Source: Salinimicrobium tongyeongense (GTDB taxonomy: Bacteria; Bacteroidota; Bacteroidia; Flavobacteriales; Flavobacteriaceae). From it: a stretch of DNA of 64,000 nucleotides. The notes under the pieces were generated by a model. That model worked only from the letters and a program-made list of their open reading frames with translations. It made no database searches and had not been told where the DNA came from. Made by a program: the position numbers and the translations under genes. Every line of letters begins with the position of its first letter. The first letter of the stretch is position 1. Where the stretch lies: the NCBI RefSeq assembly GCF_026109735.1, contig NZ_CP069620.1, positions 1,426,001 to 1,490,000 of the forward strand, read 5' to 3'. This document shows, piece after piece, positions 48,997 through 51,412 of this stretch.

Positions 48997-49959
48997 ATGG
49001 CTAGCTTAGAACCCATTTTACAGGAAAACAAAGACAGATTCGTGATTTTTCCGGTGAAGCATCACGACATTTGGGACTGGTATAAAAAAATGGAAGCCAA
49101 TTTCTGGACTGCAGAAGAAATTGACCTGCAGCAGGATCTGAACCACTGGAACACTAATTTGGGTACCGGTGAAAGAAATTTCATCAAACATATACTTGCC
49201 TTTTTTGCCACTTCACATGCAGTTCTAAGGGAGAACCTGGCCAAAAACTTCGTGAATGAAGTTCAATACCCCGAAGCCAGGTCCTTCTACGGATTTCAAA
49301 TAAGCAGGGAGAATATCCATTTTGAAACTTACTCCCTGCTTATAAACACCTACATCAAAGATGAACAGGAAAAAACCGCCTTTTTTAAAGCTTCCGCCCA
49401 TCAGAAGAAAAATATGTGGGCGCAAAAATGGGGAAAATCCAGTTCTTTTGCCGAAAGGCTAATTGCTTTTGCAGCGATTGAAAAAATCTTCTTTTCAGGG
49501 GCTTTTTGTTCCATCTTTTGGCTTGGGAAGCAGGGACTCCTGCCTGGCCTTTACCTCGCCAGCCAACTTGTGGCAAGGGATAAAGGTGTTCAATCAGGTT
49601 TTGGGGCCCACCTGCACAACAAGCATCTGGTGAACAGGCTGCCAAAAGAGCGTAGAAGGGAGATTATTCTTGAAGCCCACAACCTGGAACGAGAATTCAT
49701 TACAGCAAGCTTCCCCAATGAGCTTATGGGAATGAAGTGCGAATCACTACTTCATTACCTCGAGTCTGATACCGACCAACTACTGCTTCAGCTGGAATGC
49801 ACAAAAGAATTCGGAACAGAAGACCCGTTAAGTCCTATGGATCCAGATAGCCTTCAGGAGAAAACCCATTTCTTAGAAAAAAGAGTGGGAGCGTTCAAAA
49901 ATGCGGGTACCACAAACAAAGAACCTGAACCCTTCCGCAGCAAAAATCAGGAATCCTGA
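48997..49959 (+). CDS. Degenerate ribonucleotide reductase beta-like protein (R2 fold with lost metal ligands)
   Basis: A 320-residue protein clearly related to class I ribonucleotide reductase beta subunits (ILQENKDRFVIFPV, FWTAEEIDL, FIKHILAFF, NEVQYPEARSFYGFQ). E105, H108, Y112 and E162 of the active site remain. Three expected metal ligands are changed: H74 for Asp (TSHAV against the usual ASDGI), K196 for Glu and Q199 for His (RDKGVQ against RDEGVH). The C-terminal tail, which in true subunits ends in an acidic -F peptide that docks on NrdA, is replaced by a basic-polar tail. No nrdA lies nearby. The frame is intact, so it is probably a functional non-canonical or pseudoenzyme paralogue, next to a dGTPase. 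Confidence 0.85.
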   Translation: MASLEPILQENKDRFVIFPVKHHDIWDWYKKMEANFWTAEEIDLQQDLNHWNTNLGTGERNFIKHILAFFATSHAVLRENLAKNFVNEVQYPEARSFYGFQISRENIHFETYSLLINTYIKDEQEKTAFFKASAHQKKNMWAQKWGKSSSFAERLIAFAAIEKIFFSGAFCSIFWLGKQGLLPGLYLASQLVARDKGVQSGFGAHLHNKHLVNRLPKERRREIILEAHNLEREFITASFPNELMGMKCESLLHYLESDTDQLLLQLECTKEFGTEDPLSPMDPDSLQEKTHFLEKRVGAFKNAGTTNKEPEPFRSKNQES

Positions 49960-50005
49960 AGTTTTTCAGGATAATTACGCGATTTAAACCTGAAATTAGA
50001 AAAGC

Positions 50006-50034
50006 AAGCAGTTGCGGGAACCGCCTGCTTTTTT
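50006..50034 (+). terminator. Terminator after the NrdB-like gene
   Basis: AGCAGTTGCGG and CCGCCTGCT form a bulged stem with a GAA loop, followed by TTTTTT. It separates the R2-like gene from dgt, which has its own promoter overlapping this hairpin. Confidence 0.7.
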
Positions 50035-50044
50035 GCTATTTTTG
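50012..50044 (+). promoter_or_regulatory. dgt promoter
   Basis: TTG at 50012-50014 and TATTTTTG at 50037-50044 are separated by 22 bases, within the flavobacterial range. The dgt ATG follows 25 bases downstream. Confidence 0.5.
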
Positions 50045-50068: not shown

Positions 50069-51412
50069 ATGATGAACTGGGAGCAGCTGCTTTCGCTTAA
50101 AAAAGCAGGAGACACGAACAAAAGATTACGAAAAGAACAAAATGCGACCCGCTTAGGATTTGAAGTAGATTATGACCGCATCATATTTTCTTCGGCTTTT
50201 AGAAGTTTACAGGATAAAACGCAGGTAATCCCGCTTTCAAAGACAGATTTTGTACATACGCGGCTCACCCACAGCCTTGAAGTATCGGTAGTGGGGCGTT
50301 CCCTGGGGCGCCTGGCCGGGCAAAAGATCCTGGAGAAACACCCGCAGCTGGAAAAGACCCATGGCTACCAGATGAACGATTTTGGGGCCATTGTTGCCGC
50401 TGCCGCCCTGGCGCACGATATTGGGAATCCGCCTTTTGGGCATTCGGGGGAAAAGGCCATTGGAGAATACTTCAGCAATGGCAATGGGAGGCGTTTCCGG
50501 GAGTTGCTTACTGCTGAAGAATATGAAGACCTTACCAAATTTGAAGGAAATGCCAACGGTTTCAAGATCTTAACGGAAGACAAACCCGGTATACCTGGGG
50601 GCATCAGGCTTTCTTATGCCACTTTGGGAGCTTTTATAAAATATCCGAAGGAATCCCTTCCGCATAAACCCACCGCACGCATAGCCGATAAGAAGTTCGG
50701 GATATTTCAGTCTGAAAAAGCCTTTTTTGAAGAGGTAGCCAATGAACTGGGACTTATTTCCAGCGGCAGCGGCAAAAACCTGAGCTACTACAGGCACCCC
50801 CTCGCTTTTCTTGTTGAAGCGGCCGATGATATTTGCTACACGATCATTGATTTTGAAGACGGCATCAACCTGGGGCTCATCCAGGAAGAATATGCGCTGG
50901 AGTACCTCATCAACCTGGTGAAAGATTCTATCATCACAAAAAAGTACCACAACCTGCAAACCCGCGCCGACAGGCTGAGTTACCTAAGGGCCCTGGCCAT
51001 TAATACGCTGCTCACCGAGGCTGTGGAAATTTTTATGGACAACGAGGAGGCCATCCTAAAAGGGGAATTTCACGAAGCCCTTTTTGACAGGAGTAAATAC
51101 GAAGCCCAGATCACTGATATCATTAAAATTAGTATTGATAAAATTTACCAGAGCGAAGAAGTGATTAGCAAGGAAATTGCTGGTTACCAAATGCTTTCTC
51201 ATTTGCTGGACACTTACACCGCCGCCTTACTGCCCGAAAACGGGAAACAGACAAATTACAACAAACTCGTTCTAAAATTAATTCCCGAAGCCCATCATTT
51301 TGAAGACCTTGGGGTGTACGACAAGCTTATCAAGATTTGCAGTTATATTTCTTCATTAACAGACAGTAAAATAGTGTCGTTGTTCAAAAAATTCAAAGGC
51401 CTTAAAATTTAA
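50069..51412 (+). CDS. dgt: dGTP triphosphohydrolase
   Basis: A 447-residue HD-domain hydrolase. Metal residues are in HTRLTHSLEVSVVGR and in AHDIGNPPFGHSGEKAI; the start region RLGFEVDYDRIIFSSAFRSLQDKTQV is typical of Dgt. It splits dGTP into deoxyguanosine and triphosphate. The start MMNWEQLLSLKK at 50069 is used; the longer frame translates the upstream terminator. It lies immediately after the R2-like gene, which suggests a link through dNTP pools, though the terminator and promoter between them separate the transcripts. Confidence 0.93.
   Translation: MMNWEQLLSLKKAGDTNKRLRKEQNATRLGFEVDYDRIIFSSAFRSLQDKTQVIPLSKTDFVHTRLTHSLEVSVVGRSLGRLAGQKILEKHPQLEKTHGYQMNDFGAIVAAAALAHDIGNPPFGHSGEKAIGEYFSNGNGRRFRELLTAEEYEDLTKFEGNANGFKILTEDKPGIPGGIRLSYATLGAFIKYPKESLPHKPTARIADKKFGIFQSEKAFFEEVANELGLISSGSGKNLSYYRHPLAFLVEAADDICYTIIDFEDGINLGLIQEEYALEYLINLVKDSIITKKYHNLQTRADRLSYLRALAINTLLTEAVEIFMDNEEAILKGEFHEALFDRSKYEAQITDIIKISIDKIYQSEEVISKEIAGYQMLSHLLDTYTAALLPENGKQTNYNKLVLKLIPEAHHFEDLGVYDKLIKICSYISSLTDSKIVSLFKKFKGLKI

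Follow-up and report, generated by a model that had tools for sequence, protein, structure and literature searches.

The 64,000-nucleotide stretch of DNA analysed here (the window; Salinimicrobium tongyeongense, NZ_CP069620.1, positions 1,426,001 to 1,490,000) carries a gene for the small subunit (R2, NrdB) of class I ribonucleotide reductase that stands without nrdA. The features of the locus, some of them shared with a second genus of Flavobacteriaceae (g50, described below), are as follows.

48997..49959, + strand: orphan nrdB (R2) gene of a probable pseudoenzyme; uninterrupted ORF, 320 aa
49018..49110, + strand: best-kept segment, residues 8-38, from comparison of 14 degenerate rows
49216..49218, + strand: CAT, H74, replaces the ligand Asp (D74H); codon in DNA
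49582..49584, + strand: AAA, K196, replaces the ligand Glu of E-x-x-H (E196K); common to 13 of 13 g50 homologues
49591..49593, + strand: CAA, Q199, replaces the ligand His of E-x-x-H (H199Q); codon in DNA
49960..50036, + strand: site of the missing nrdA (about 2.6 kb in locus L014), from comparison with L014
50014-50028, + strand: terminator-like stem of 5 pairs between nrdB and dgt, from the terminator scan
50069..51412, + strand: dgt, dGTP triphosphohydrolase (PRK01096, 447.5 bits, cut-off 439); next gene in 13 of 13 g50 loci too

The orphan protein scored 270.8 bits against the Pfam family Ribonuc_red_sm (cut-off 33.6) over nearly its full length, and its nearest relatives were NrdBs about 65% identical to it and encoded in the canonical locus, in agreement with the initial annotation, which had taken it to be derived from NrdB. 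Among the matches listed, its best matches in named genomes belonged to Salinimicrobium and Gillisia; the scan comprised the best 80 matches, from which very near records may be missing. The NCBIfam beta-subunit profile gave 109.7 bits against a cut-off of 309, and since a canonical relative (177.2 bits) also fell below, such cut-offs decide nothing here. With the R2lox profile the scores were 29.9 bits for the window protein and 44.6 for the canonical relative, against a cut-off of 194.

The metal-ligand and tyrosine columns were assigned by aligning the protein with human and mouse R2 and consulting the ligands listed in the accessible text of PMC3824934. All 110 other matching ORFs from the loci fetched by then (those of the best 80 named records, plus 30 further loci) read D-E-H-Y-E-E-H in these seven columns. 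The window protein retains E105, H108, Y112 and E162, as well as W37 and D195, but three of the six ligands of a functional R2 are replaced (H74, K196 and Q199); with Y112, E105, H108 and E162 still present, it may hold a single metal ion. At the C-terminus the canonical ...KISFDADF has become ...RSKNQES, that is, the NrdA-docking tail is gone. The codons thus bear out the three replacements, the four kept positions and the lost tail that the initial annotation had reported. Its picture of three altered codons in an otherwise conserved protein, however, held for those codons only: the change is far larger, with 66% identity to the NrdB of the nearest relative, whereas among six Salinimicrobium records NrdB identity is 94-99%. 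Likewise, the intact end-to-end alignment it described proved right as to the uninterrupted frame, but against the nearest relative it is broken by an in-frame gap of four residues after residue 132. Since the 34% divergence extends across the whole gene, and the genome is assembled as one contig (3.51 Mb, rated 100% complete), the replacements do not look like read errors at three codons. Judged by its ligands, cognate NrdA and tail, the window protein is a class I R2 by descent and not by function.

The window is collinear with its nearest relative, S. profundisediminis MT39 (locus L014), where the order is nrdB-nrdA-dgt with a full-length nrdA; in the window it is nrdB-dgt. Eight neighbours are 79-97.9% identical between the two loci (two being truncated at the locus end), and the dGTPase is 97.5% identical, compared with 66% for NrdB. 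The promoter scan of the window stayed at chance level (2 found, 2.0 expected), and 6 terminator-like sites were found where 2.0 were expected. Profile searches of the complete window genome found no canonical-type NrdA and no second NrdB of the same type. PF02867 matched only a class II reductase, NrdJ (NrdJ_Z, 486 bits, cut-off 400), and a short NrdA, and the one other Ribonuc_red_sm gene encodes a remote short NrdB (E 0.04 by sequence) that adjoins this short NrdA and in which the first E-x-x-H and the tyrosine align. Thus, where the initial annotation had asked for a complete nrdAB, the genome yielded only this short remote pair and NrdJ. Its suggestion that the protein regulates the true enzyme finds no support, given the deletion of nrdA at the locus and the failure of the searches to find a same-type NrdA or second NrdB; the same absence of nrdA from locus and genome makes it unlikely that a functioning class I enzyme uses the protein as a metal-free R2. 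What we favour among its three readings is the pseudoenzyme.

Among 12 genomes of the genus, canonical NrdA was found in 9, an NrdJ match in 11 and short NrdA in 6; the three lacking canonical NrdA are the window genome and two assemblies of 74-75% completeness. With 6 carriers among these 12 genomes, the short NrdA has a patchy distribution. In the window genome, the short nrdA-nrdB pair (L010, 4-1262 and 2414-5119) lies near two ORFs that, by eye, resemble parts of transposases. In genome G002 (contig 5, 112079-112560), fragments matching the end of a short NrdA and the start of an NrdB lie side by side in short open frames, which may represent a second, broken copy.

When 397 family genomes were searched with the window protein, 295 matched at E 1e-50, and the two weakest matches both came from g50. 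Altered-ligand NrdBs were found in 13 of its 15 genomes, in every case with dgt as the next gene and with no nrdA match in the stretch; the 7 of 13 loci with longer stretches share the gene order DUF3109, DUF4412, NrdB, dgt and have no nrdA. None of these copies carries the H-K-Q set of the window for which the initial annotation had proposed an orthologue search, but all 13 are homologues at the same locus with altered ligands, and the Glu to Lys change in E-x-x-H is common to all 14 degenerate copies (window and g50). Ten copies (g50B) read E-E-H-Y-K-K-H, that is, two Glu to Lys changes plus Asp to Glu. The last is a mild change and may leave room for a single metal ion, and the accessible part of PMC3824934 describes Glu at the ligand-Asp position in R2c and R2lox. 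The other three (g50A) read Q-E-Y/H-F-N-K-H; two rows have four of the six ligands altered and the third row has three, and all have Phe instead of the radical Tyr. A tyrosyl radical is therefore excluded in g50A, to judge by these columns, and unlikely in the other copies. The acidic docking tail is lost in all 13, although g50A still ends ISFK/RTDL. The g50 dgt is 81-84% identical to those of Gramella, Christiangramia and Gillisia.

As to large subunits, the 15 g50 genomes hold no canonical NrdA, NrdJ in all 15 and short NrdA in 13; in the remaining two, G064 (100% complete, in the g50A clade with Phe) and G439 (61%), NrdJ is the only PF02867 match. In G438, two short NrdA copies of equal score lie near the two ends of contig 1 (12558-13904 and 4704151-4705497), which is either an assembly overlap or a duplication. 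Two g50 genomes, both 99% complete, lack nrdB: dgt and DUF4412 are in place and a tblastn search for remnants came back empty. The gene is thus dispensable.

These findings bear on two ways in which the protein could still serve a reductase. It could be a working metal-free R2 that converged with class Ie and serves the short NrdA or NrdJ. The lysine resembles that of class Ie (K237 and Lys213 in the available texts of PMC11846895 and PMC8902622, respectively), Y112, W37 and D195 are retained in the window protein, and a short NrdA is present in the window genome. However, the docking tail is absent, the short NrdA already has its adjacent NrdB with an aligning first E-x-x-H and tyrosine, and G064, whose clade has Phe for Tyr, holds no class I large subunit by PF02867; moreover, class Ie, as far as those accounts go, keeps the Asp and loses three Glu, whereas the window protein loses the Asp and keeps two Glu. 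We consider such an enzyme highly improbable. Alternatively, the protein could act like yeast Rnr4, pairing with another R2 of the same cell and stabilizing it. Rnr4, too, is of the eukaryote-like R2 type and, in the part of PMC2704937 available, is described as lacking three iron-coordinating residues and as required to activate Rnr2. A helper of this kind is very doubtful, because no intact same-type R2 was found in the window genome (the only other R2 is the remote one, E 0.04) and in G064 PF02867 found no class I large subunit that it could serve.

How widely NrdB has degenerated in the family was judged from a mixed profile run over 396 genomes (237 genera, the window's own excluded), of which 296 matched at E 1e-8. 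Matched rows reached E about 1.8e-172 or better, except in three g50 genomes and in G194, G114 and G139, the first of these a partial copy with intact ligands and the other two contig-end pieces; a local estimate puts the window protein at about 4e-159 in this profile. By score, then, and fragments aside, only g50 departs from the canonical copies, on a scale where loss of one or two ligands would stay hidden. Phages (122 records), plasmids (90) and viral contigs (12) held nothing above 60% identity to the window NrdB.

In the protein tree the 14 degenerate rows grouped together, with branch support of 30/76 and a warning of long-branch attraction. Constraining the window row with Salinimicrobium and Gillisia was not rejected (p-AU 0.343), and once the g50 rows were taken out, the window row fell nearest Flavobacterium and Myroides, with low support. 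By identity, the window NrdB is at 64-65% to Salinimicrobium and Gillisia and at 32-40% to g50. At sites changed in both, it has the g50 residue in 16-27% of cases for the ten g50B rows and in 13-15% for the three g50A rows; the same measure gave 11-35% for 14 control rows (3 canonical, 11 viral), at fewer sites (17-66 versus 77-85). An apparent excess of shared residues over the BLOSUM62 expectation (19 of 82 seen and 7.1 expected for g50B; 10 of 78 and 6.7 for g50A) was removed by these control rows. Since the identity is nearer to Salinimicrobium and Gillisia, the context is that of Salinimicrobium, and residues are not shared with g50 in excess, two independent origins of degenerate NrdB, one in the window and one in g50, are favoured by the comparison; the Glu to Lys change would then be parallel.

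We next consider selection. A branch model of the nrdB codons, run on the dgt tree of nine taxa (one inner branch with support 49), gave an omega of 0.22 on the window branch and 0.015 elsewhere. Fixing omega at 1 on that branch was worse by 30.2 log-likelihood units, and an equal omega throughout by 33.7, in a fit that hit the upper bound for the window branch. For dgt the window branch (0.0175) and the rest (0.026) were alike. As synonymous positions are almost saturated and the fit makes the nrdB branch four times as long as that of dgt, the value of omega is approximate; its placement above the background and below 1 is more secure. Random mutation to a mean identity of 65% left the frame free of stops in only 2 of 500 draws, and the window nrdB had none of the signs of a pseudogene (omega near 1, stops, frameshifts). 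The codons thus indicate that the window nrdB is under purifying selection, much weaker than that on working NrdB, and the contention of the initial annotation that the gene had not simply decayed is upheld by the omega of 0.22 and the intact frame.

Within g50, the nrdB copies had median pairwise omegas of 0.129 (all 3 pairs) and 0.117 (40 of 45 pairs, dS under 1.7); for dgt in the same rows the medians were 0.036 (3 pairs) and 0.024 (32 of 45 pairs). The 13 copies are all open from their own ATG, at pairwise dS often above 1.

At four-fold sites the flanks of the window gene are nearest to L014 (0.28-0.48 different), while nrdB is 0.62 from L014 and nearest to L012, at 0.49. Over 48997-49956, L014 is as distant at silent sites as far relatives are, and the allele may have been exchanged. 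These distances suggest that either silent change was accelerated too, or the window allele predates the split and was exchanged.

A separate sign of decay was seen in genome G090, where contig 196 (L177) carries, at about 1500-1617, a remnant of the start of nrdB of about 28-38 codons with a stop inside. The assembly consists of 670 contigs with 8% contamination, and the profile finds no full nrdB copy in it. The remnant shows true decay of nrdB.

The simplest reading of the orphan gene would be that of a relic, drifting under relaxed selection since nrdA was lost and with a frame as yet unbroken. Omega values of 0.22 (window) and about 0.12 (g50) are indeed far above the 0.015-0.036 of working NrdB and dgt; at 5-15 times those values, relaxation may explain part of the change. 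Loss of the gene in 2 of 15 g50 genomes and the stop-bearing remnant in G090 would fit such drift, as would the branch lengths: with omega fixed at 1, the window branch amounts to 0.99 neutral changes per codon, near the 0.82 of dgt, instead of the 3.28 of the free fit. Yet that same fixed omega costs 30.2 log-likelihood units, the gene has neither stop nor frameshift at 66% identity, when neutral draws seldom stay open, and the g50 copies remain open at their large dS. We regard mere drift as unlikely.

The model of the window protein has an R2-like predicted fold with a mean pLDDT of 67 (residues 1-41 and 272-320 under 50), and that of g50B a mean of 79. Their best fold matches are human and mouse R2, with 1sms and 1jk0_B among the Foldseek matches. 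Residues 8-38 keep 13 of 17 canonical-invariant residues in all 14 degenerate rows, compared with 21 of 181 elsewhere (p = 1.8e-8, for a segment picked after seeing the data). This conservation fits a binding surface, but may reflect folding alone, in a part of the window model that is of low confidence.

We therefore propose, with a probability of about 0.62, that the window protein is an NrdB-derived metal-free pseudoenzyme that has kept the R2 fold and acts through binding a partner. In the best reading of the comparisons above, two genera, probably independently of each other, would have lost nrdA and retained the protein for a function other than catalysis. The sequences show an nrdB-nrdA-dgt locus from which nrdA is missing, in a genome with NrdJ and the short NrdAB pair, and a remaining nrdB that has lost three of six ligands and the docking tail with its frame intact; g50 shows a like outcome at the same locus, with different ligand replacements but an identical Glu to Lys. 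With the R2 fold predicted to be retained, we infer that the lysine forms a salt bridge with E105 that occupies the vacated metal site, which would keep the helical bundle stable without metal, and that the protein would act by binding a partner and not by making a radical. The role is perhaps control of the dNTP pool; the partner is a guess, and the first candidates would be dNTP-pool proteins of the carriers, namely NrdJ and the adjoining dGTPase.

More tentatively, and with less than even confidence, the NrdB scaffold might have been recruited at least twice independently, metal-free and outside class I, through the same Glu to Lys change. The boldest form of this proposal is an anti-phage decoy, an inactive R2 that would pair with a phage NrdB of the same eukaryote-like type and spoil phage nucleotide synthesis. 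Tenacibaculum phages Larrie (57.8% identity) and pT24 (55.2%) encode this NrdB type, as do 12 viral contigs (D-E-H-Y-E-E-H in 11 of 11 read), the host has no such enzyme of its own to harm, and rapid change and patchy presence would suit a decoy. The neighbouring dgt, however, is far below the cut-off for anti-phage dGTPases (170.7 versus 400), and a decoy is a long shot.

The window NrdB belongs to the same family and locus as canonical Flavobacteriaceae NrdBs (Salinimicrobium, Gillisia, Aquimarina), being 65-66% identical to those of Salinimicrobium, and differs from them in lacking three ligands, the docking tail and an adjoining nrdA. The nearest precedent is yeast Rnr4 (Y4), although it serves a working R2. 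As described in the accessible text of PMC2704937, it is an R2 paralogue minus three iron-coordinating residues, a likeness by number, and it differs in working with Rnr2 and R1, where the window genome yielded no same-type partner. The apicomplexan R2_e2 (PfR4) resembles the window protein as a long-branch R2 that lost the radical Tyr in several species; unlike it, R2_e2 keeps the iron ligands, and binding of PfR4 to R1 and R2_e1 has been reported (PMC3824934, available sections). Class Ie R2e proteins (QSK/VPK) are, in the accessible portion of PMC11846895, likewise metal-free R2s with a lysine in the emptied site, but they arose from class Ib R2, keep the Asp and form a reductase with R1 and NrdI. 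From the Q-S-K or V-P-K set the window NrdB has only the K, and its nearest relatives are NrdBs at 65% in the canonical locus, not class Ib NrdF. R2lox has the R2 fold and no R1 partner. We take the class Ie lysine to sit at the position of E196K, judging by its spacing to the tyrosine in NrdF. On that footing Glu to Lys is apparently seen a third time in class Ie (PMC11846895 and PMC8902622, from their available texts). R2lox, for its part, differs from the window NrdB in keeping its metal ligands (PMC3824934, same sections).

The part of the literature searched, mostly outside subscription journals, contained no report of an orphan ligand-less bacterial NrdB, nor, in its available texts (PMC8463856 and PMC3161108 included), of an R2 kept without a large subunit. 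Genes of this kind still exceed the Pfam R2 cut-off without the ligands, which is a warning for annotation. The metal-less or non-canonical R2s described in the sources available either support reduction (class Ie) or accompany a normal R2 (Rnr4, and R2_e2 is thought to). If selection maintains an R2 in a genome that yielded no matching large subunit, its fate would be unlike any of these, and a carrier with NrdJ alone makes this testable; and the Glu to Lys change in g50, the window and apparently class Ie may point to a recurrent way of filling the cavity so that the bundle survives.
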